39,399 nt of DNA from Clostridia bacterium (GTDB lineage: Bacteria > Bacillota > Clostridia > UBA1212 > UBA1255), in NCBI GenBank assembly GCA_017620915.1, contig JAFZSK010000077.1, forward strand, positions 1 to 39,399, read 5' to 3'. Shown piece after piece: positions 1-30,385 of this stretch. Each line of letters opens with the position of its first letter. Position 1 is the first letter of the stretch. Under the pieces are notes generated by a model, which was not told the DNA's origin, did not search any database, and worked only from the letters and a program-made list of their open reading frames with translations. Made by a program: the position numbers and the translations under genes.

Positions 1-46
1 ACAGCCGGCGCGCTGTGTCCGAATGCAGCAAAAAGTCCGTGCGCAT
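1..46 (-). CDS. 5' end of an unidentified gene, last visible gene of the acylation operon
   Basis: An ATG at 46 (reading left) is preceded by a GGAGG Shine-Dalgarno at 55-59 with 8 nt spacing. The frame is open to the window edge and encodes MRTDFLLHSDTARRL. It begins 24 bp after the acyl carrier protein stop, so it is almost certainly co-transcribed with it. Fifteen residues are too few to assign a family. An adenylate-forming ligase or another acyl-handling enzyme would fit the context, but that is a guess. Confidence 0.6.
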   Translation of the reverse strand, partial: MRTDFLLHSDTARRL

Positions 47-70
47 GATCTGTCCCTCCGTTATCGGTGC

Positions 71-319
71 TTATTTCGTTGCCCGCGCGGCAATGATGGA
101 CGCCATCTCTCCCACGTTTTTCATTGTGGAGACTTCGCCCATTTTGAAGCGCATGCCGAACTCGCGCTCTACCGCGGCGATCAGCCGGATATGCTCCAGA
201 CTGTCCCAGTCCTCGATGTCTTTCGCGGTGGTATTCGGGTTCACCGTGATCTCGTCGTCATCAAAAATATCTCTGAATACTTCGTCAAGTCTCTCGTAGA
301 TCTCTTTGTTTCCGATCAT
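71..319 (-). CDS. acyl carrier protein
   Basis: An 82-residue acidic protein with the size and helix pattern of a carrier protein. The phosphopantetheine attachment motif is DWDSLEH, with Ser40 as the expected site of the 4'-phosphopantetheine arm. A GGAG Shine-Dalgarno lies about 8 nt before the ATG. It follows the FkbH-like gene by 25 bp. In FkbH systems the three-carbon glyceryl unit is loaded onto a stand-alone ACP, so this is probably the dedicated carrier for that group and not the fatty-acid ACP; that role is inferred from position. A DltC-like carrier would look similar at this size. Confidence 0.93.
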   Translation of the reverse strand: MIGNKEIYERLDEVFRDIFDDDEITVNPNTTAKDIEDWDSLEHIRLIAAVEREFGMRFKMGEVSTMKNVGEMASIIAARATK

Positions 320-344
320 TTTTGTTCGCTCCTCTCAAAACAAT

Positions 345-2123
345 TCAGTTTACTTTTATGACCCGGTTCTGGTTTTCATAACCGGCAGTCTTGAGGCTCC
401 AGACCGTGTTGCCCGCTTCATCCGCGGAGACAAGCGTGAAGCCGAAAATCTCGTACAGTTTTTCCACCATCTTGTTTTTGGCGGTGGGATAATAATACCC
501 GCGGATCTCCTCCACGCCACGGGCGGCGGCAACGCGCACCAGTTCGTCCAGCATCGCCTGCTCCATGTCGCGCTTCAGCACGCGGCAGCTCATGAGCCAG
601 AGTTCCATGTGCAGCAGTTTGTCATCCTGGCGTCCGATCACGACGGAAACGATGCCGTTGTCCCCGAACTTGTCTGTGAGCCGGCCGTACAGCCGCACGT
701 ATTGCGGATCCGCCGCCGTCGCCTCCATTTCCGATTCGGTGAAACGTTTGGTGGTGAGGTTGAACTGATTGCTCTTGTTGGTAAGCTGCGTGATGCGCGC
801 CAGGTACACCGGCTCAAAATCTTTGATGTCGGCATGCATATCGAGACTGAGCAGGTACTCGTTGTAATCTGTAAAGGATTCCTGGGCCTGCGCGCGCATT
901 ATATTCTGGCGGTACATCTCCACGCGGGAGGCGTCATCCGCCGAGAACGATGTCACTTCAAAATAACCGCCGCGGTCAATTCGGTGAATATACTCCTCTA
1001 CTTTATTGACCTCGGGCACCGCGACGCCGGGAACGTAGGCGCGGACAATTTCGCGTTCGGCGGGATTGTCGTCAACGAAAACCAGACTCTCCGGAAGCAG
1101 CGCCAGCTCGGAGGCGATCTTTTTGATGTTTTCGGATTTGGCATCCCAGTTTGCTTTGATGATCGTGAAATCCTCCGGCCGCAGCACGCCGGACGGATGG
1201 TTCAGTCCCGCAATGGCGTTTTCATGATCATTCTTGGAAGCCACATTCAGCAGGATGCCCAGCTGTTTGTGCGCTTTGAGATACGACTGGAATTCGTAGA
1301 AGCCCTGCCCCACGGACGTTTCCTGCCCCACGTCGATGCCGTCTACGCCGTCGTCGCCGACCACACCGGACCAGAGCGTGTTGTCCAGGTCCAGCACCAG
1401 CGCCTTCTTGTTTTTGCCGAAGATCGCCTTGATAATGTTAGCCAGATCGAACGCAAATTCCGGGATCGCAGGTACGCACAGGCAATACTTATACATGTAC
1501 CAGTAGAACGGATCCGACCACTTTTCCAGCCCGTAGGCGGCGGAAATGTAGTTGATATCGTGGATATAAAAGTCGCTGTGAGCATCTGCGTAGTCGTAAA
1601 AGCGCTGATTCAGCCGGCCGGCAAAATTGGTGCGGCCGCGGTAGTCAACGGCATCTTTATTGCCCAGCAGCCTGTAAAACGGCATTTCGAAGTTATTCTG
1701 GATGATCGGGCAGTTAAACTTCGCCTTCAGTTTTTCCCACATTCCGGTGAAGAACGCTAGCTGATCGTCAATAAGGCGATCGACCTGCTCTTTAGAATCG
1801 GACATCTGCGGGAAGCCTACATTGACGTTACGCAGCGAAGTGTGGATAAATATGATATCAGGGTGGAAATTGTCCAGTTCCTCATTTCCGAACATGGCAT
1901 CCTGATAGAACTGTGCATATTCAGATTCGTAGAACGCCGGTTCGATGCCCTGGTTCAGCAGAAACAGTTCCAGCGCGGCAATAATATCATGCGTCGTTGA
2001 ACCGCCCAGCACGGCGATATTCTTTTTTAACCGCGTGCTGCCGTCCGCCAGCAATGCTTTCTTCAACTTGCGCCGGTTCTGCTGGATCAGTTCGCTGTCA
2101 AACGGATACTCAAGTTCTCTCAT
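345..2123 (-). CDS. FkbH-like HAD-IIIC family protein (predicted glyceryl-ACP loading enzyme)
   Basis: 592 residues from the ATG at 2123, which has GAGG 9 nt upstream. A TTG at 2150 overlaps the previous stop but lacks a better site, and the family usually starts with a sequence like MRELEYPFDS. An SGNH-like segment (IAVLGGSTT, about residue 36) is followed by a HAD domain with motif I LDLDNTLW (about 244-251). A C-terminal acyltransferase-like region contains MSCRVLKR; its Cys, about 513, is a candidate acyl-carrying residue. Characterised FkbH relatives dephosphorylate 1,3-bisphosphoglycerate and move the glyceryl group to an ACP. The next gene is an ACP. The likely product is therefore glyceryl-ACP or a related acyl-ACP; the exact substrate is inferred. 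Confidence 0.88.
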   Translation of the reverse strand: MRELEYPFDSELIQQNRRKLKKALLADGSTRLKKNIAVLGGSTTHDIIAALELFLLNQGIEPAFYESEYAQFYQDAMFGNEELDNFHPDIIFIHTSLRNVNVGFPQMSDSKEQVDRLIDDQLAFFTGMWEKLKAKFNCPIIQNNFEMPFYRLLGNKDAVDYRGRTNFAGRLNQRFYDYADAHSDFYIHDINYISAAYGLEKWSDPFYWYMYKYCLCVPAIPEFAFDLANIIKAIFGKNKKALVLDLDNTLWSGVVGDDGVDGIDVGQETSVGQGFYEFQSYLKAHKQLGILLNVASKNDHENAIAGLNHPSGVLRPEDFTIIKANWDAKSENIKKIASELALLPESLVFVDDNPAEREIVRAYVPGVAVPEVNKVEEYIHRIDRGGYFEVTSFSADDASRVEMYRQNIMRAQAQESFTDYNEYLLSLDMHADIKDFEPVYLARITQLTNKSNQFNLTTKRFTESEMEATAADPQYVRLYGRLTDKFGDNGIVSVVIGRQDDKLLHMELWLMSCRVLKRDMEQAMLDELVRVAAARGVEEIRGYYYPTAKNKMVEKLYEIFGFTLVSADEAGNTVWSLKTAGYENQNRVIKVN

Positions 2124-2146
2124 GCTGCATAACCTCGCTTTCGGAA

Positions 2147-3673
2147 TCAATAAATAACCGCTTCGTACTTCTTCACAAAGTCCGAAGAGTGACTGAAAAT
2201 GTTTGCCAGGCCGATGACATCCGTCACGCCCTGCGAATCGATCAGATCGTACAGATCCAGCTTGAAATACCGCGGATCGATCATGATGATCTTGTCAAAG
2301 CTGCCCAGCAGGAATGCCGGCACCGGATTGCCGTAGCTGTCTTTAATGATCAGCAGCGTGCGACCGTTGCCGCCGACGCCGGTGACAATACTCATCACAT
2401 CGTCATAATACATCGGAATGCTGTAGCTTTGCCGGACATCAAGTTCTTCAAAGTAGATCCGGCCTTCAATATCTTTCTGACGTTTGAACGAATCTTGACT
2501 GTAATATGAGCAGGTGCACTGGGATGTATACGGCGAAATGTAGTAAGTAAACGTTTCCGGATGGTCAATGAGTTCCTTCATCTTGAAATAAGAATAGAAT
2601 GAGCCCACGTAACCTTCTCTGGTTTTGGCAGTATACTGTGAAATATCCGCGAACGGCACTCCGGCAGCCTCCGCAAACGCTTTGGTGCAATAATAGGCGC
2701 CAAGATGTGTCCAGTGGTGGTCGGTGCGCAGATAGATGTTCTCGTCTTTATGCGGCTTCAGCGCTTCGTACGCGTTGACCATGGTTACTTTGCTCGGATC
2801 AAACAGGCTCTGCAGATAATTCAGTTCCCGCAGCTGCTCATCCGCACTGTATTTGAGCGAATCCGGCAGATAAAACATTGAGGCGATCGGTACCGTCATA
2901 CTGTATATATTCAGATTCGGACGGTTGCGCTTGATCTCCTGCATGGCGTCAACATACCGCTGCATCGCTTTCCGCGAACCGCCGTACAGCTCCATACCGC
3001 GCCACCTGTACAGTATCGCGCCGTCGTTGTCATAAAGCTCAAATTCATCATTTTCATTGGGAGTAGCCGTCGGGCCGGGCGCTTTTGTAGGAGTGCGGGT
3101 GGGCACGGGCGTAGGTTCTTTTGTCGGTACCGGAGTTGGTTCTTTAGTCGGCACGGGAGTAGGCGTAGGCGGAGCGGCCGTCACACCGGGCTCCAGTGTT
3201 ACGATCTCCGTGGGCAGCGGCGTATCGGTCACCGCAGGCGTTGCGGAAGGCACGGATGTACTATCGTCCGTCGGAAGCTCAAAAGTATCCTCGGGGACCG
3301 GCGTATTCTTTTCTCTGTGATACGGGGTCTCTTCCCAATCGTCCGGATCTTCGGTGCGGCGGACGGAAATATCGTGGATGATAACATCGCCGACCATAAC
3401 GCCTTTGAGTGTCACGAAGCGGTTGCCCGCGTTTTTCAGATCTTCCCGGCCGGGTATAGTGTCGTTATAGTGCTCCTGCAGTTCAGTGAAAAAGCGACCG
3501 CTCACCAGGCCGGAAAAAGTCAGCTTCGGCATTGCCGCCAGTTTGCGGTTTTCATTCTCGGAATAATCCGGGCGCTTCAAGACAAGCAGTGCAACCGAAA
3601 TTATCAGGATCGAACCCAGTACAAATACCACGAAGCACAATTTCAGGAGGTTGTTTAAAAATTTGTTATTCAT
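2147..3673 (-). CDS. DHHW-family AlgX/DltD-like extracellular acyltransferase partner
   Basis: 508 residues from the ATG at 3673 (GGAGG at 8 nt; an ATG two codons earlier is too close to it). One N-terminal transmembrane segment (about 12-33) anchors the protein outside the membrane. A Pro/Thr-rich linker (about 125-208, with repeated TPVPTKEP units) separates a short N-terminal part from the catalytic domain. The family signature DHHW (about 318-321) and KDSYGN (Ser about 446) supply the Asp/His and Ser expected of SGNH-type O-acyltransferases such as AlgJ/AlgX. It lies 15 bp after the MBOAT gene. The pair would pass an acyl group through the membrane (MBOAT) and onto an extracellular glycan (this protein). 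The long P/T linker inside the protein is unusual for the family. Confidence 0.88.
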   Translation of the reverse strand: MNNKFLNNLLKLCFVVFVLGSILIISVALLVLKRPDYSENENRKLAAMPKLTFSGLVSGRFFTELQEHYNDTIPGREDLKNAGNRFVTLKGVMVGDVIIHDISVRRTEDPDDWEETPYHREKNTPVPEDTFELPTDDSTSVPSATPAVTDTPLPTEIVTLEPGVTAAPPTPTPVPTKEPTPVPTKEPTPVPTRTPTKAPGPTATPNENDEFELYDNDGAILYRWRGMELYGGSRKAMQRYVDAMQEIKRNRPNLNIYSMTVPIASMFYLPDSLKYSADEQLRELNYLQSLFDPSKVTMVNAYEALKPHKDENIYLRTDHHWTHLGAYYCTKAFAEAAGVPFADISQYTAKTREGYVGSFYSYFKMKELIDHPETFTYYISPYTSQCTCSYYSQDSFKRQKDIEGRIYFEELDVRQSYSIPMYYDDVMSIVTGVGGNGRTLLIIKDSYGNPVPAFLLGSFDKIIMIDPRYFKLDLYDLIDSQGVTDVIGLANIFSHSSDFVKKYEAVIY

Positions 3674-3688
3674 TGACATCCCCTCCGA

Positions 3689-5092
3689 TCAGAATTGTTT
3701 ATACAGGAACGGCCGGTCGGTGGCATTGACCAGCAGCAGGCTCGAGATCAACAGCAGCGCAATGCAAAATACACCCCAGACAACGCCCACGGCGATCTGT
3801 GCCGTTCTGTGCCCTTCCAGTTTCTTCTGCAGGAACGGCACCAGCGGGAAGCAGCAGACCAGCGCGATCAGGAACAGAAAAATATTGTTCATGAAGTATG
3901 TAGGAAACATCTTCCCGATAAATCCGCCTTTGGAAAAGAAGAACAGGCTGCGGAAAAAGCCACCCAGCTGCCGAATATCCGTAAAGCGGAAAATACCGAA
4001 GCCGATCACAATGATCAGTTTGGTGTAAATATGCTTGACCGCGAGCGGGATCTTCTTGAGCCGTTTCTTGCCCAGCAGCGTTTCGATCAGAATAAACACA
4101 CCGAAGTACAGACCCCAGATGATATAGTTCCAGGAGGCGCCGTGCCACATGCCGGTACAGAACCAGACCAGGAACAGGCCGCCGTACTGACGCATTTTGC
4201 CGAAAATCGGCACATAAAGCAGGTAATCCTTGAAGAAAGTACCCAATGAGATATGCCAGCGCTGCCAGAATTCCGCAATGGACTTGCACATAAACGGATA
4301 ATTGAAGTTTTCGTCAAAATGGAACCCGAATATCCGGCCCAGGCCGATCGCCATATCCGAGTAGCCGGAGAAGTCGAAATAAACGTACAGAGAATAAAGC
4401 AGCACGGCGTACCAGGTGTCTACCGAACTGACGAATTCCGCACCGTTCTTCCAGAACATGTCGACAACGACCGCCAGGTTGTCGGCCAGGATAACTTTCT
4501 TACCGAGGCCGACGCAGAAACGCGTAAGCCCCTGATACATGTCGTCAATATTGACCGTACGCTCCTTCAGCTCGCTTCCGATGGTGGAATAGCGTACGAT
4601 CGGTCCGGCGACCGTGCAGGGAAACAATGACGTAAACAGCAGGAAGTCCGGGAGATACTTCTCGGCGCTGATCTTTTCCCAATGGATGTCCAAAAGGTAA
4701 GAGACCGTGCGGAACGTGAAAAAGCTCATTCCGAGCGGCACCCACATCGACGGGATCCGGGCGGAAGTCCGGAATATCAGATTGATGTTTTCCAGGAAGA
4801 AGCCGGTGTATTTGAACACCAGCAGCATGCCCAGGTCCAGCACCAGGCCTGCCGCCAGCAGCGCAGTGCCTGACTTCTTGCCGCGTTTGAGTTCGATCAG
4901 GCGGCCCAGTGAGAAATTCAGCAGCGCATACAGTATAATAAACAGGAGCGCCCAGGCATCGCCCCAGGCGTAAAAGATCAGTGAAAAAACAATTAATACC
5001 GTGTTCTTGTATTTTATCTTCGGTGAAATAAAATATACGATCAGGCACAGCGGTAAAAACGCGTATAAGAAAAACAGATCGGAAAAGTTCAT
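3689..5092 (-). CDS. MBOAT-family membrane O-acyltransferase (AlgI/DltB-like)
   Basis: 467 residues, polytopic, with the typical AlgI/DltB length. Conserved MBOAT signatures are YVYFDFSGYSDMAIG (about 237-250), EFWQRWHISLG with His280 and GMWHGASWNYIIWG with the putative catalytic His317. AAAGGA lies 5 nt before the ATG. It is the first gene of the acylation operon. The 75 bp before it contain no convincing promoter, so read-through from the ribosomal-protein operon or a weak promoter is possible. MBOATs of this class transfer an acyl group from a cytoplasmic donor across the membrane to a DltD/AlgJ-type partner; the ACP two genes downstream is the likely donor. Confidence 0.93.
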   Translation of the reverse strand: MNFSDLFFLYAFLPLCLIVYFISPKIKYKNTVLIVFSLIFYAWGDAWALLFIILYALLNFSLGRLIELKRGKKSGTALLAAGLVLDLGMLLVFKYTGFFLENINLIFRTSARIPSMWVPLGMSFFTFRTVSYLLDIHWEKISAEKYLPDFLLFTSLFPCTVAGPIVRYSTIGSELKERTVNIDDMYQGLTRFCVGLGKKVILADNLAVVVDMFWKNGAEFVSSVDTWYAVLLYSLYVYFDFSGYSDMAIGLGRIFGFHFDENFNYPFMCKSIAEFWQRWHISLGTFFKDYLLYVPIFGKMRQYGGLFLVWFCTGMWHGASWNYIIWGLYFGVFILIETLLGKKRLKKIPLAVKHIYTKLIIVIGFGIFRFTDIRQLGGFFRSLFFFSKGGFIGKMFPTYFMNNIFLFLIALVCCFPLVPFLQKKLEGHRTAQIAVGVVWGVFCIALLLISSLLLVNATDRPFLYKQF

Positions 5093-5167: not shown

Positions 5168-5539
5168 TTAGAACGCCAGCAGACCCATGAACGCCAGTTC
5201 ACCCTGCGTCGTATCGCAGCGGCTGTACTGCACTACTACAGGCACGTCGGATTCCACCAGCATAGCATACGGTACGGAGCGTTCAACACCGTTCCCATCG
5301 TCGTCCTTGATTTTATCCATCCGGATATGGTTGGTGCGCTTGGCGCCGCAGACCGCGTGGAAACCGGTGCGGGGCTCGCGGTCCTCAAAATACAGCGTGA
5401 TGTTGAGATGCGCGTCTTCGTCGCCGGTATTGAGCACGCAGACCGCTTCGTGGCTCACGTATGTGCCGTTGTCAACGCCCGGATAATATGCATCGGGGAT
5501 CAGCCAGTTCTTTTTGCCCTTGCCCTTCATAAACTTCAC
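5168..5539 (-). CDS. sensory rhodopsin transducer (ASRT) family protein
   Basis: 123 residues matching the Anabaena sensory rhodopsin transducer family along its length: NWLIPDAYYPG, FISHE-like YVSHEAVCVLNTGDEDA, the ITLYFEDREP strand, TNHIR and the VPVVVQYSRCDTTQ segment. ASRT is a small soluble beta-sandwich that in Anabaena binds the cytoplasmic side of a light-sensing rhodopsin. Homologues occur in bacteria without rhodopsins, where the ligand is unknown. The GTG at 5539 follows the DUF4364 stop directly, with AGGAG 4 nt upstream. An in-frame ATG at 5530 is the alternative start. No rhodopsin gene occurs in this window. Confidence 0.85.
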   Translation of the reverse strand: MKFMKGKGKKNWLIPDAYYPGVDNGTYVSHEAVCVLNTGDEDAHLNITLYFEDREPRTGFHAVCGAKRTNHIRMDKIKDDDGNGVERSVPYAMLVESDVPVVVQYSRCDTTQGELAFMGLLAF

Positions 5540-23678: not shown

Positions 23679-26600
23679 TTAAACTTCGCTATAACGTCTG
23701 CGGCGGATGGTGAACAATACTGCCCCCGCAACGGTGATCAGCAGTATCGCAGCTGTCGATCCGAACGCCCGCTCGTCGCCTGTCGGAGGTGGCGGCGGAA
23801 GTAAGGAATTGACAACAGTCAGCGCAGTTTTGCCGTCGTAGTCGATCTCCGCGACGAGCTTCGAGTCAATGTCTGTAACAGTGATCGTAACGGTATGAGG
23901 AGTCGTGTCGTAGGTCATGTATACGATATTGCCCGCACGCTCGGTGATCGTGTAAACGTACACGCCCGGTTCCGTAAATTCGATGGATCCGAAAACCGCT
24001 GTGGGGTTTGCCTTGGTGGCAGACGCGGATGTTGCCTTCGGCAGCGGCGCGTTTTCGGTGACGGCGGCAATGTCGAAAATGAACTCATCATTGTCTTCCC
24101 ACGCACGGCCGGTAAGTTCTTTTGTAACCTCCGGCGCTGCTCTGCAGGGTGTGGTCGCATAGCTGTTGATAATAACAAGCGTGTCGGAACCATCGTAATC
24201 TACGACAACAGAAAGCGCATTCGTATCCGGATCTGCGGTAACGGTTACGGTTACTTTATGCGCCGCGGTGTCGTACGTGACGCCCGGCACACCGTCATCG
24301 ACCTCGGTGATCGTATACTCGTATACACCGACAGTATCGAATTCCACCTCTGCGAAGATCGCGGTGGGAGCATTTTCGGTAACTGTCAATTCGGTCACCG
24401 CCGGCATCGGAGCCCCTTCGGTAACTGCCGCAAGTACGAACTTGAACGAATCCGCTTTGCCCCAGTCGCTGAACTGCTTGGTGGCCTCAAAATGTGCGTA
24501 TATTGCGGTAAAGGTGTTGGTTATAACAAGCGAGTCTTTCCCGCCGTAGTCAACGACCGCCGACAGCGCGTTGGTCTGTGCATCCGCCGTTACGGTAACC
24601 GTGATAACATGTGCGGCCGTATCGTACGTGACGCCCGGCACACCGTCATTGACCTCGGTGATCGTATAATTATATACGCCGACGGTATCAAATTCCAGCT
24701 CCGCAAAGACCGCCGTAGGATCATTTTCTGTTACTGTCAATTCAGTCACTGCCGGCATAGGAGCGCCGTCAGTCAGAGCGGCAAGTACGAACGTGAAGGA
24801 GTCCGCTTTGCCCCAGTCGTCAAACTGTTTGATAACCTCAAAATGCGCATGAGCCGCAGTAAATGTATTGGTGATCACAAGAGTATCCGCGCCGTCGTAA
24901 TCCACGACCGCCGAAAGCTCGTTGGTATCGGGGTCAGCGGTCACGGTGACGGTCACTTTATGCGCCGTCGTGTCGTAAGTAACGCCCGGCACGCCGTCGT
25001 TGATTTCGGTGATCGTGTATTCGTAAACGCCGACTGTATCGAATTCCAGCTCCGCAAATACTGCGGTTGGATCATTTTCCGTGACTGTCAATTCAGTCAA
25101 CGCCGGCATCGGCGCACCTTCGGTAACAGCCGCCAGCACGAACGTGAACGAATCCGCTTTGCCCCAGTCAGCAAACTGCTTGGTCGCTTCAAAATGCGCA
25201 TGCGTCGCGGTGAAAGTATTGGTGATCACAAGCGCATCCGCGCCGTCATAATCTACAACAGCGGAGAACTCGTTGGTATCGGGATCGGCCGTCACAGTGA
25301 CAGTTACCTTATGGGCCGTCGTGTCATAAGTGACACCGGGGACATGGTCATCTACCTCGGTGATAGTGTATTCATAAACACCCACCGTATCATACTCCAG
25401 ATCCGCAAAGACCGCCGTAGGAGCCGTTTCGGAAACCGTAAGCTCAGATACTAACGGCATAGGAGCACCTTCGGTAATTGCCGCAAGTACGAACGTGAAC
25501 GAGTCTGCTTTGCCCCAGTCAGCAAACTGCTTGGTGGCCTCAAAATGTGCGTAAGTCGCGGTAAACGTGTTGGTAATTACAAGCGTATCCTTTCCGCCGT
25601 AGTCAACTACCGCTGAAAGCGCGTTTGTGTCAGGATCGGCAGCTACCGTAACTGTAACAATATGAGGAGTTGTATCATATGTGACACCCGGTATATGATC
25701 ATCGACTTCGGAGATTTCATACTTGTAAACGCCGACTGTGTCAAATTCCAGTTCCGCAAAGACAGCCGTGGGATCATTTTCCGTGACTGTCAATTCGGTC
25801 ACTGCCGGCATCGGAGCACCGTCAGTTACAGCGGCAAGAACAAACGTGAAGGAGTCCGCTTTGCCCCAGTCGTCAAACTGCTTAGTAGCCTCAAAATGCG
25901 CATGCGTCGCGGTGAACGTATTGGTGATCACAAGCGCATCGGCACCGTCGTAATCCACAACAGCGGAGAGTTCGTTGGTATCCGGATCAGCCGTCACGGT
26001 GACGGTAACTTTATGTGCAGCCGTGTCATAAGTGACACCGGGCACATGGTCGTTGACCTCGGTAATAGTGTACTCATAAACACCCACCGTATCAAACTCC
26101 AGCTCGGCGAAGACCGCTGTAGGAACTTTTTCAGTGACCGTTAGCGAAGTAACTGCGGGCATTGGTGCACCGTCAGTAATTGACGCAAGCACAAACGTGA
26201 AAGAGTCTGCTTTGCCCCAGTCTTCAAACTGCTTGGTAGCCTCAAAATGTGCGTGCGTCGCGGTGAACGTGTTGGTGATCACAAGCGCATCCGCACCGTC
26301 ATACTCCACGACCGCCGAAAGTTCATTAGTGTCAGGATCAGCCGTCACCGTTACGGTAACTTTATGCGGAGCCGTGTCATATGTAACACCCGGTACATGA
26401 TCGTTTACCTCGGTGATCGTGTATTCGTAAACACCGACTGTATCGAATTCCAGCTCTGCAAAAACAGCTGCAGGATCTGCCTCGGTAACCGTCAGCGAAA
26501 CAGCTGCCGGCATCGGAGCACCGTCAGTGACAGCTGCAAGCACGAACGTGAACGAATCCGCTTTACCCCAGTCAGTAAACTGCTTTGTCGCCTCAAAATG

Positions 26601-29600
26601 CGCGTGCGTTGCGGTAAACGTATTCGTAATAACAAGAGTCGCAGCGTCATCGTAGTCCACAACAGCGGAAAGCGCATTCGTGTCGGGATCTGAAGTTACT
26701 GTAACTGTGACCGTATGAGGAGTTGTATCGTATGTAACACCCGGCACATGATCGTCGACCTCGGTGATCGTGTACTTATAAACACCGACGGTATCAAATT
26801 CGAGTTCCGCAAAAACTGCCGTGGGATCAGCTTCGGTGACCGTCAGCGAAGCAGCTGCCGGCATCGGAGCGCCGTCAGTAATTGCCGCAAGCACGAAAGT
26901 AAACGAGTTTGCTTTGCCCCAGTCAGCGAACTGCTTGGTGGCTTCGAAATGCGCGTGAGTGGAGGTAAATGTATTGGTGATCACCAGCGCATCCGCACCG
27001 TCGTAATCCACGACAGCGGAGAGTTCGTTGGTATCTTGATCGGCAGTAACGGTGACAGTCACCTTATGCGCCGCCGTATCGTATGTAACACCCGGCACGT
27101 GATCGTTGACCTCGGTGATCGTGTACTCATAAACACCGACCTTTACAAATTCAAGTTCCGCAAAAACTGCCGTAGGAACTGCCTCGGTAACTGTCAGCGA
27201 AGCTGCGTCCGGCATTGGAGCGCCGTCAGTGACCGCCGCAAGCACGAACGTAAACGAATCCGCTTTGTCCCAGTCGTCAAACTGCTTTGTGGCCTCAAAA
27301 TGCGCGTGAGTAGCGGTAAACGTGTTGGTGATCACCAGCGCATCCGCACCGTCATAATCGACAACAGCGGAAAGCGCATTGGTATCAGGATCGGCAGTAA
27401 CGGTAACGGTAACTATATGCGCTGTTGTGTCGTATGTAACACCCGGCACATGATCGTTGACCTCAGTGATCGTGTACTCGTAAACGCCGACTGTATCATA
27501 TTCAAGATCCGCAAAAACAGCTGTGGGATCAGCCTCGGTGACCGTCAGCGAAGCAGTATCCGGCATCGGTGCGCCGTCAGTCACAGCGGCAAGTACGAAC
27601 GTGAACGAATCCGCTTTGCCCCAGTCATCAAACTGCTTGGTGGCCTCAAAATGCGCGCTGGTTGCGCTGAACGTATTGGTGATCACGAGAGCATCGGAAC
27701 CTTCGTAATCCACAGCAGCGGAAAGCGCGTTGGTCTCGACATCTGCGGTAACAGTGACCGTAACGATATGCGGCGTCGTGTCATACATGACGCCCGGCAC
27801 ATGATCATCCACCTCGGTGATCGTGTATTCATAAACACCCACCGTGTCGAATTCGAGCTCCGCGAAGACCGCCGTGGGATCAGCCTCGGTGACCGTCAGC
27901 GAAGCAGTATCCGGCATCGGCGCACCTTCAGAAACTGCTTTAAGCACAAAAGTGAACGAATCCGCCTTGCCCCAGTCATTGAAGCCTTTCGTCGCCTCAA
28001 AATGCGCGTGCGTCGCAGTGAACGTATTAGAGATCACTAGATCATCGGCACCGTCATAATCGACCACCGCAGTTATCTCAATGACGCGAATGTTCTGTTC
28101 GGTATCGATGCGAATATTCTTTGTTACAGTAACAGTCACAGGATAAGCTGTAGGATCGTATGTGACGCCCGGCACGTGATCGTTGATTTCGGTGATCGTG
28201 TACTGATATGTGCGGACATTTGAATCCGGATCGCCGGTATCAAAGCAGTTCGCATCGTAGGTGATCTTTTCAAACACTGCCAGCGGCTTGACCGCTGTAG
28301 CGACGGCAATATTGCTGAGCGGCATCGGAGCCCCCTCGGTCACCGGATCAAGTCTGAACCGGAATGAATCGGCTTTCCCCCAGTCGTCGAACTGCTTATA
28401 TGCGTCAAGCTCGACCGCCGCGGTCTCAAAATCTTCGCGGGTATTCTCGACAACGATCTCTACGATATCGGAAACAATTACGATATCCCCTTCAGTCTTC
28501 ACATTCGGCAGAACGAAGTACACCGGGTCGGAGGGCGCAATGACCTTTTCACTGGGCAGCTCGACCAGCATATACGTGCCGTAAGGAAGGTCAACGAAAG
28601 CGTAACCGCTGTTGTCGGTGTTCAATGTTCCGGCAAGGTTCTCGGGAACCGCTATTTTATCTATCTCTTCCTGCGTCGGGACTTCGCCCTCCGGCTCAAT
28701 TGTATCGGGCACCGCGTACACATTGAAGTCAATGTCGGAGATCGGATATTCATGTTCCTCTCCCCTCGCGACCTTGGATATCCGCAGACCGATATCGCCT
28801 TCACGCTTGAATTTGATCGACGCTTTTGCGCGCACTCTGGTCTCGCCCTCGGTCACAGAAATAAGCGCCTGATCTGCTCTCGCGCCCGCCGCGGTCTCAT
28901 AGCAGTAAACGCCCTTTCCAAGGTGCTGCGTGCCTTTGGCGGTGATCTCGATCGTGTCGCCGTCTTTTGCAGTTACTTCAAACTCGTATTCAGTGAATTC
29001 GGCAAGATCGACTGTTGCGACCCGGGCCGGCGCCTCCCCGTCCTGAAACGTTTCCGCGATAAGTTCAACAGAATCGACTGAAGCCTTTCTTCCGTTGTTG
29101 AGAATGACCTTGAGGCCGACGGTGTATGTGTCGTCAGTGCCGGGAACGAGTTGGCGGCGCGTGATCTGCAGATCTGAGATAATGACCTGATCGCTCTCAG
29201 GCTCCTGCCCCGGAAGCGAAACCAGGAAATCAACAAGGGAGTTGATCCGGTCGGCAATATCGTTAAGATAAGTTTTATACGGACGCCAGGCACTGAACTG
29301 GCCGTTGCCGGCGGCATCCCACCAGGTCCAGCACTCGTTCTGGAACTGATGGATCCGGTTGGGCATCCACGGATTCTTGTAGTTGTTGAAAGTGTATTGG
29401 TAACCTACGAGATCCTCATGGTCAGAGTTGTTGGTATTCGCGAAATACCAGATCGCCATCTGGACGCCGGCAATGATCTCGCTTCTGTCGAGTTTGTCAG
29501 CCTTATCGCTGTCAAAGCCGTTCGCTTTGAGGAACACCTTCATTTCGTCAATTGAAACGTAAGGATAAGAATTTATGACGATCGCGCGGAGTTTTTTCGC

Positions 29601-30335
29601 CGCGGCTTTGCTGTAGTATGTGCTGTCCTCGAGGTTGATGCGCTTATACAGGTTCGTAGTGCTCGGCGAGGGGTGCGCGTCGGAGCAGTATACGATATCG
29701 TAATTGCACTCGCCGTACTCGTAAAGCTTGTCGGGCACCCATTGACCGTTTTCGTTTCGGATCGACTCGTCAGTGACATTGATCAGCGCCATAGTGGCGG
29801 GTATCTCGCCGCAGCCGTGGTTAGAGCACTCATACGCGCCGATAAGCTGATAGATATACGGGCTGTTTTCACTCTCGGGTTCAAGAATGTTGTACGCCCT
29901 CTGATTGAAAACGGTATCCAGCTGATCGTACGGATCAAGCTTGCCGGATAGTTCCGCGGGGATCTCTGCCTGCTGCTCCGGCGTCAATGAATCATACGCC
30001 GCCTTTGCCTCCGCACGCTTTGCAAACATATCGGCAACATACGCCTCATACGCCGCAGCGAGCAGCTCGTGCTCCTCCAGGGCTTCCTCGTCAAATATGT
30101 TTGACGCGAAGTTCGCGGAGGTTATGGCCCTTTTCGTGGCAGCGAACTCGGTTTTTCGCTTATCCTGCATCTCCTGCAGAGAATCGATCTGTTCCAGCAG
30201 CTGTGTGACCTGCTCGACCGTAAATTCCGGGGATTCATCGTCCCCGTCCTCAGCGATGATGGGAAAGTGCAGTACGGTAAAAAGCATGAATGTCGCTATG
30301 AGCAGGGATGCCGTTCTTTTTAAAATGTCAGTCAT
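23679..30335 (-). CDS. giant thioester-domain adhesin with Spy0128-like isopeptide repeats
   Basis: 2218 residues from the ATG at 30335 (AGGTG 6 nt upstream). The order is: signal peptide (1-29); helical region (35-140); thioester domain (about 158-375) with Cys217 in YCSD and Gln292 in VQMAIW, the pair that forms the internal thioester used for covalent binding to host amines; beta domain (380-510); SpaA/Cna-B domain (513-632; likely isopeptide Lys521 and Asn631, with Glu592 as catalytic candidate). Then follow thirteen Spy0128/FctA-like domains: a divergent one (636-773), eleven near-identical 117-residue copies (774-2060) and a divergent last one (2061-2178). Each copy keeps Lys in EATKQF, Glu in YTITE and Asn in VITNTF, the isopeptide triad. 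The tail has LPPPPPTGD, a hydrophobic helix and RRRR. A stiff, cell-wall-linked adhesive fibre is predicted. Confidence 0.92.
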   Translation of the reverse strand: MTDILKRTASLLIATFMLFTVLHFPIIAEDGDDESPEFTVEQVTQLLEQIDSLQEMQDKRKTEFAATKRAITSANFASNIFDEEALEEHELLAAAYEAYVADMFAKRAEAKAAYDSLTPEQQAEIPAELSGKLDPYDQLDTVFNQRAYNILEPESENSPYIYQLIGAYECSNHGCGEIPATMALINVTDESIRNENGQWVPDKLYEYGECNYDIVYCSDAHPSPSTTNLYKRINLEDSTYYSKAAAKKLRAIVINSYPYVSIDEMKVFLKANGFDSDKADKLDRSEIIAGVQMAIWYFANTNNSDHEDLVGYQYTFNNYKNPWMPNRIHQFQNECWTWWDAAGNGQFSAWRPYKTYLNDIADRINSLVDFLVSLPGQEPESDQVIISDLQITRRQLVPGTDDTYTVGLKVILNNGRKASVDSVELIAETFQDGEAPARVATVDLAEFTEYEFEVTAKDGDTIEITAKGTQHLGKGVYCYETAAGARADQALISVTEGETRVRAKASIKFKREGDIGLRISKVARGEEHEYPISDIDFNVYAVPDTIEPEGEVPTQEEIDKIAVPENLAGTLNTDNSGYAFVDLPYGTYMLVELPSEKVIAPSDPVYFVLPNVKTEGDIVIVSDIVEIVVENTREDFETAAVELDAYKQFDDWGKADSFRFRLDPVTEGAPMPLSNIAVATAVKPLAVFEKITYDANCFDTGDPDSNVRTYQYTITEINDHVPGVTYDPTAYPVTVTVTKNIRIDTEQNIRVIEITAVVDYDGADDLVISNTFTATHAHFEATKGFNDWGKADSFTFVLKAVSEGAPMPDTASLTVTEADPTAVFAELEFDTVGVYEYTITEVDDHVPGVMYDTTPHIVTVTVTADVETNALSAAVDYEGSDALVITNTFSATSAHFEATKQFDDWGKADSFTFVLAAVTDGAPMPDTASLTVTEADPTAVFADLEYDTVGVYEYTITEVNDHVPGVTYDTTAHIVTVTVTADPDTNALSAVVDYDGADALVITNTFTATHAHFEATKQFDDWDKADSFTFVLAAVTDGAPMPDAASLTVTEAVPTAVFAELEFVKVGVYEYTITEVNDHVPGVTYDTAAHKVTVTVTADQDTNELSAVVDYDGADALVITNTFTSTHAHFEATKQFADWGKANSFTFVLAAITDGAPMPAAASLTVTEADPTAVFAELEFDTVGVYKYTITEVDDHVPGVTYDTTPHTVTVTVTSDPDTNALSAVVDYDDAATLVITNTFTATHAHFEATKQFTDWGKADSFTFVLAAVTDGAPMPAAVSLTVTEADPAAVFAELEFDTVGVYEYTITEVNDHVPGVTYDTAPHKVTVTVTADPDTNELSAVVEYDGADALVITNTFTATHAHFEATKQFEDWGKADSFTFVLASITDGAPMPAVTSLTVTEKVPTAVFAELEFDTVGVYEYTITEVNDHVPGVTYDTAAHKVTVTVTADPDTNELSAVVDYDGADALVITNTFTATHAHFEATKQFDDWGKADSFTFVLAAVTDGAPMPAVTELTVTENDPTAVFAELEFDTVGVYKYEISEVDDHIPGVTYDTTPHIVTVTVAADPDTNALSAVVDYGGKDTLVITNTFTATYAHFEATKQFADWGKADSFTFVLAAITEGAPMPLVSELTVSETAPTAVFADLEYDTVGVYEYTITEVDDHVPGVTYDTTAHKVTVTVTADPDTNEFSAVVDYDGADALVITNTFTATHAHFEATKQFADWGKADSFTFVLAAVTEGAPMPALTELTVTENDPTAVFAELEFDTVGVYEYTITEINDGVPGVTYDTTAHKVTVTVTADPDTNELSAVVDYDGADTLVITNTFTAAHAHFEVIKQFDDWGKADSFTFVLAALTDGAPMPAVTELTVTENDPTAVFAELEFDTVGVYNYTITEVNDGVPGVTYDTAAHVITVTVTADAQTNALSAVVDYGGKDSLVITNTFTAIYAHFEATKQFSDWGKADSFKFVLAAVTEGAPMPAVTELTVTENAPTAIFAEVEFDTVGVYEYTITEVDDGVPGVTYDTAAHKVTVTVTADPDTNALSVVVDYDGSDTLVIINSYATTPCRAAPEVTKELTGRAWEDNDEFIFDIAAVTENAPLPKATSASATKANPTAVFGSIEFTEPGVYVYTITERAGNIVYMTYDTTPHTVTITVTDIDSKLVAEIDYDGKTALTVVNSLLPPPPPTGDERAFGSTAAILLITVAGAVLFTIRRRRYSEV
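24156..28016 (-). repeat. eleven tandem 351-bp coding repeats in the adhesin
   Basis: The period is exactly 351 bp (117 codons), checked on the conserved CCCCAGTC block (for example 24460 and 24811), so 11 units fill 3861 bp without indels. The units keep protein sequence closely but differ at many third codon positions. Two further, more diverged units flank the array (28430-28017 and 24155-23802). Confidence 0.93.
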
Positions 30336-30385
30336 TGTATTCACCTGTATAAAGATAGCTTCGCTTTTTTGCAAAAGACCCGTCT

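Follow-up and report, generated by a model that had tools for sequence, protein, structure and literature searches.

The window analyzed here is a 39,399-nucleotide stretch of a Clostridia bacterium genome (contig JAFZSK010000077.1), the first base of which is the end of contig C100. At this end, on the minus strand, lies a four-gene cassette encoding, in reading order, a membrane-bound O-acyltransferase (MBOAT), a DHHW-family SGNH protein, an FkbH-like protein, and an acyl carrier protein (ACP), separated by gaps of 9, 23, and 25 bp (Table 1). An earlier note, made from the sequence alone, had described these four genes as tightly spaced and had singled out five motifs in their products (LDLDNTLW, DWDSLEH, GMWHGASW, DHHW, and KDSYGN); genes and motifs were all located where it had placed them. 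Pfam and NCBIfam assignments were firm for the MBOAT, DHHW, and FkbH proteins, and the small ACP scored modestly above its cut-off. The cassette is complete at four genes because a uronate-isomerase-like gene already begins at base 46, which also rules out further cassette genes past the contig end; the translation of bases 46–1 matches the gene after the ACP in two related loci, L023 and L024. The cassette has no polymer-synthesis gene of its own and no acyl-tailoring gene, unlike sister FkbH–ACP clusters with MaoC, short-chain dehydrogenase/reductase (SDR), or glyoxalase-type genes.

Table 1. Genes of the cassette and the adjoining gene start, in window coordinates
Feature	Position	Strand	Evidence
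MBOAT O-acyltransferase, 467 amino acids	3689–5092	−	PF03062, 73.7 bits; DltB best PDB match; C-terminal tail motif
DHHW-family SGNH O-acyltransferase, 510 amino acids	2147–3679	−	PF14286, 127.8 bits; fold match; invariant residues
FkbH-like HAD–GNAT glyceryltransferase/phosphatase, predicted ACP loader	345–2123	−	PF21211 (FkbH_N), 50.2 bits; TIGR01686, 276 bits
ACP, 82 amino acids, phosphopantetheine Ser40 in DWDSLEH	71–319	−	PF00550 (PP-binding), 24.9 bits
Start of next gene, uronate-isomerase-like, cut by contig end	1–46	−	Translation MRTDFLLHSDTARRL

The FkbH-like protein comprises FkbH_N, a HAD-IIIC domain, and a GNAT-like C terminus, and it clears the curated TIGR01686 cut-off of 147 bits, placing it within that family. 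Its start is most likely ATG 2123, the Met at which relatives also begin, rather than TTG 2150; residue numbers given here follow the 601-amino acid open reading frame (ORF) open to TTG 2150. In the structural model (pLDDT 87.9), the first two parts matched BF1531 (3slr) and the C terminus matched GNAT acetyltransferases. LDLDNTLW occupies residues 253–260, and at least 98% of 114 FkbHs keep D254, D256, S305, K338, D360, and D361. The triplet S521–C522–R523 was present in all 114, one of them within a 2758-amino acid open frame, probably that of a multidomain synthase. Cys522 sits at the end of the GNAT strand where pantetheine would bind and, judged from the sequence, is likely to be the cysteine that carries glyceryl covalently. 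Enzymes of the OzmB type use a glyceryl-enzyme intermediate.

The residue directly before HAD motif II (position 304) is Ala in the genus of the window and Cys in 56 of the 62 members of the cassette clade described below; most sister FkbHs that lack MBOAT–DHHW have Asp or Asn there. Cys304 was considered as the covalent glyceryl residue, a role in which the Ala of the window would have counted against glyceryl loading. The position was not taken as decisive, given that Cys, Ala, Asp, Asn, Ser, Ile, and Val all occur at the position in the superfamily, that Cys522 is invariant, and that dN/dS of FkbH among congeners is 0.02–0.06. Because these values show strong purifying selection, the Ala304 form presumably works. 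Four Pseudobutyrivibrio loci (L066, L071, L087, and L093) have FkbH homologues with Asp at 304 and no detectable adjacent ACP; in L066 and L071, the genes after FkbH resemble an ABC polysaccharide exporter.

The phosphopantetheine site of the ACP is intact, its DSL core is retained in nearly all ACPs of related loci, and the nearest solved structure is 2lml; the protein is the predicted acyl donor to the MBOAT. The latter has motif residues His280 and His317, with GMWHGASW at residues 314–321, and ends in two extra hydrophobic helices followed by a terminal FLYKQF (Tyr464). This tail corresponds to the FXYXXF acyl-shuttle motif and recurs in the MBOATs of related loci. The tyrosine of this motif has been shown to be acetylated in PatA and is reported to carry D-alanine in DltX (PMC12148441). 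A catalytic His combined with a C-terminal FXYXXF places the protein with MBOATs of PatA/PatB-type MBOAT–SGNH systems. DltB, its best PDB match, is a distant relative, and the score against the DltB-like model TIGR04091 was 161 bits, below the cut-off of 375, so the protein does not qualify as a DltB equivalog.

The DHHW protein has a membrane anchor (residues 6–38), a low-confidence linker rich in Pro and Thr (approximately residues 98–210), and a catalytic domain with TDHHW at 319–323 and KDSYGN at 446–451. Residues K446–D447–S448, D320–H321–H322–W323, D468, and R470 were invariant in 24 DHHW sequences. The AlphaFold model aligned with 4nzk (TM-score 0.88) and with PatB1 5v8d (TM-score 0.75), both normalized by target length. 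A permuted SGNH fold with a nucleophile Ser, DHHW as block V, and DxRY as block II identifies the protein as PatB1-type; the same catalytic blocks are present in Bacillus cereus PatB1 (PMC9487903). Among congeners whose FkbH is 85–89% identical, the DHHW protein is only 51–54% identical, which perhaps reflects acceptor-driven divergence. The linker is a repetitive Pro/Thr stretch (TPVPTKEPTPVPTKEP).

A scan of genome contigs with an FkbH query returned 80 loci. Upstream gene order was counted only where at least 4.3 kb lay upstream of FkbH (n = 56), and the ACP was counted where there was room downstream (n = 75). MBOAT–DHHW lay directly upstream in 43 of the 56 loci and the ACP lay downstream in 69 of the 75, a recurrence that argues against a chance arrangement. 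Gut and rumen bacteria belonging to Oscillospiraceae, Lachnospiraceae, Acutalibacteraceae, and Eubacteriaceae share the conserved four-gene order, and complete cassettes occur in the named organisms Pseudoruminococcus massiliensis and Anaeromassilibacillus senegalensis. Flanking genes mostly fell into different protein groups from locus to locus, the largest shared groups covering 12 and 10 loci; because the order is conserved while the neighbors mostly change, the four genes are taken to act together.

Cassette-linked FkbHs also form a lineage: in a tree of 102 FkbH domains, they share a single clade of 62 rows (SH-aLRT 83), with a single cassette FkbH (L096) outside it, and the genus of the window nests beside L027 (96, starred). 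Among 31 genomes of the order, MBOATs at least 56% identical to that of the window adjoin FkbH, and those at or below 43% do not; the exceptions, G003 and G005, have such an MBOAT without adjacent FkbH, a contig break being the likely reason. For near relatives, FkbH and ACP are thus not missing from related MBOAT–DHHW loci, an absence that the earlier note had named as refuting its reading. Distant MBOAT–DHHW pairs, such as that of the clostridial ccs locus, have been reported without FkbH (PMC7710045). In sister FkbH–ACP clusters of an Oscillospiraceae locus (L060:6001–10757) and a Treponema locus (L084:6001–10803), the next genes encode a MaoC dehydratase, an SDR reductase, and an MBOAT; their MaoC and SDR enzymes could convert glyceryl-ACP to a lactyl-type group before surface transfer.

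Taken together, the genes and their order, the catalytic residues, the predicted FkbH and DHHW folds, and the conservation and selection observed make it probable that the cassette is a self-contained MBOAT–SGNH surface acylation system supplied with glyceryl through a carrier protein of its own, which FkbH charges. What each step does chemically, and that the acyl group is glyceryl, is read by analogy with characterized relatives: FkbH domains in natural-product pathways are reported to load and dephosphorylate D-1,3-bisphosphoglycerate to give carrier-bound glyceryl (PMC8949500, PMC7489565, PMC13122637). FkbH would take 1,3-bisphosphoglycerate, bind its glyceryl group covalently (Cys522 being the likeliest site), remove the 3-phosphate, and hand D-glyceryl to the ACP, whose Ser40 carries the phosphopantetheine. 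On the inner side of the membrane, the MBOAT (His317) would accept glyceryl from the ACP; it would then move the group onto its own Tyr464 and across the membrane. The DHHW protein would then receive it on Ser448, in a triad with the His and Asp of DHHW and with Arg470 at the oxyanion hole, and esterify a hydroxyl of an extracellular polymer.

The earlier note had called the locus a Dlt-like system with FkbH as its predicted loader. The loader assignment is supported by anatomy, catalytic residues, and comparative genomics, and the comparison with Dlt (DltA, DltB, DltC, DltD, and DltX; D-alanylation of teichoic acids) holds for the carrier-fed half: both have a loader, a carrier, an MBOAT, and an extracellular SGNH partner, and in the cassette too the acyl group would be relayed through the tyrosine of an FXYXXF motif. 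It does not extend to the transferase half, which is PatA1/PatB1-like rather than DltB/DltX/DltD: DHHW (PF14286) replaces DltD (PF04914), the shuttle motif is fused to the MBOAT, and the DltB model scores below cut-off. FkbH likewise stands in place of the adenylating DltA. The B. cereus PatA1/PatB1 system, which O-acetylates secondary cell wall polysaccharide, shares the MBOAT and DHHW SGNH pair, its catalytic blocks, and the fold (5v8d), but the Pat-type pathway is held to use acetyl-coenzyme A (acetyl-CoA) without a carrier, whereas the cassette includes a dedicated FkbH and ACP. A 2025 mechanistic paper on PatA states that, Dlt apart, MBOAT–SGNH pathways have no carrier protein (PMC12148441). 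FkbH forms glyceryl-ACP in the biosynthesis of polyketides and tetronates (Mad7/Mad8 and others), where an FkbH with all the conserved HAD and GNAT residues likewise stands beside a stand-alone ACP; its partners there are polyketide synthases, FabH, or dehydrogenases, whereas here they are MBOAT–DHHW and the glyceryl group is predicted to reach a surface polymer. The CcsH/CcsI pair of the clostridial ccs locus is also an MBOAT and DHHW pair in Clostridia, but it is embedded in a cellulose synthase locus with no FkbH or ACP reported.

Other acylation sets were sought across the whole genome. Contig 91 (L145, G000:C91:12500–21500) encodes an adenylation protein that resembles DltA but scores under the TIGR01734 cut-off (272 bits against 560), a DltC-like ACP, an MBOAT ending in FIYVQF, and, after the MBOAT, an unclassified 399-amino acid protein; no recognizable DltD was found in this operon-like set, and PF04914 had no match in the genome. 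Like the cassette, the set is carrier-fed in gene content and its MBOAT has a fused FXYXXF-type tail, but its loader is an amino acid adenylation domain; its makeup suggests carrier feeding of an MBOAT with a fused shuttle motif outside the cassette as well. The missing PF04914 had hinted that the cassette might substitute for an absent dlt operon. This was ruled out by the set on contig 91, and because the genome has this separate DltA-like set, the cassette is an additional modification rather than a replacement for D-alanylation. A further MBOAT, ending in SIYGNF, is encoded on contig 121 with an AlgX-family partner and without a carrier. One genome therefore holds three MBOAT sets that differ in feed (FkbH/ACP, A-domain/ACP, and carrier-less), and this speaks for the FkbH set attaching neither D-alanine nor acetate but some other group.

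Several points weigh against glyceryl transfer to a teichoic-type polymer as described above. The solved structure nearest to this FkbH subfamily, BF1531, is of a protein without an assigned function. Ala304 stands where most cassette and many distant FkbHs have Cys, and the substrate or mechanism could differ. It is accordingly conceivable, if rather unlikely, that the same machine transfers another acyl group, the FkbH subfamily or enzymes acting on acyl-ACP delivering a different three-carbon unit (lactyl, 3-hydroxypropionyl, or another acid). Variation of residue 304 with clade and context agrees with this, as do the sister clusters, whose MaoC and SDR (L060, L084) or glyoxalase-type (L055) enzymes could modify glyceryl-ACP; however, neither the four-gene cassette nor its flanks show a recurrent tailoring gene, and the core HAD and GNAT residues of FkbH are unchanged. 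Plain O-acetylation, in which MBOAT–DHHW would use acetyl-CoA as PatA1/PatB1 does while FkbH–ACP served a separate pathway sharing the operon, is improbable. In its favor, the DHHW partner has its nearest counterparts in acetyl systems, the genome has a carrier-less MBOAT–AlgX pair, and clostridial MBOAT–DHHW pairs of the ccs type have been proposed to acetylate (PMC7710045). Against this, FkbH accompanies the MBOAT clade with hardly an exception and in the same order, and no further gene that could use glyceryl-ACP recurs.

As for the acceptor, about nine relatives from the rumen Ruminococcus group have a GT2–TagF fusion (PF04464) as the gene immediately upstream of the cassette, and LicD takes this place in three; these loci cluster on the tree and may represent few events. 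With these genes as the lead, the acceptor is probably a teichoic-type phosphopolymer, by way of a guess. Against it, no PF04464 protein, and so no direct TagF link, was found in the genome of the window, and the teichoic link of the relatives is thus indirect here; the sole polymerase candidate found is one Sulfatase-family protein, weakly LtaS-like. Two clade members, L035 and L062, have FkbH–ACP directly behind a GT2–TagF fusion with no MBOAT–DHHW in the locus, as would be expected if FkbH–ACP fed a polymer backbone (e.g. a glycerate unit in a TagF/LicD-type polymer) that MBOAT–DHHW modified secondarily. Most cassettes, that of the window included, have no adjacent polymer-synthesis gene, and we regard this last explanation as very improbable.

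Upstream of the cassette lie an ASRT-family gene, DUF4364, and then apparent Obg and ribosomal L27/L21 genes. The ASRT-family gene (Anabaena sensory rhodopsin transducer, PF07100, 144 bits; 5168–5539) is directly upstream in what is presumed to be a rumen anaerobe and is kept in L023 and L024. Elsewhere in the window is a very large minus-strand ORF of 2231 amino acids (23679–30374).

A literature search outside subscription papers and preprints for FkbH joined with MBOAT or polysaccharide returned only natural-product and bioinformatics papers and one paper on Campylobacter flagellar glycans (cj1302, an fkbH-domain gene). The parts are thus known, and the combination and its predicted product were without report in the literature searched; an earlier description may exist. 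Descriptions of MBOAT–SGNH wall acylation have so far recognized two kinds: Dlt, in which a carrier delivers D-alanine, and CoA-fed systems that transfer acetate. The cassette breaks this division by combining a Pat-type MBOAT with a fused shuttle motif, a dedicated carrier, and a non-adenylating loader. Whether it represents a widespread, unreported surface glycerylation we judge an even call: FkbH would divert 1,3-bisphosphoglycerate onto the carrier, and the PatA1/PatB1-like pair would esterify teichoic-type or other wall polymers, beside DltA-like and apparently CoA-fed pathways in the same cell. P. massiliensis and A. senegalensis make the glycerate prediction directly testable. If it is true, the surface of common gut and rumen bacteria carries glycerate taken straight from glycolysis, and a neutral, hydroxyl-rich glycerate ester would alter charge, lysozyme recognition, or phage recognition in ways unlike D-alanine or acetate.

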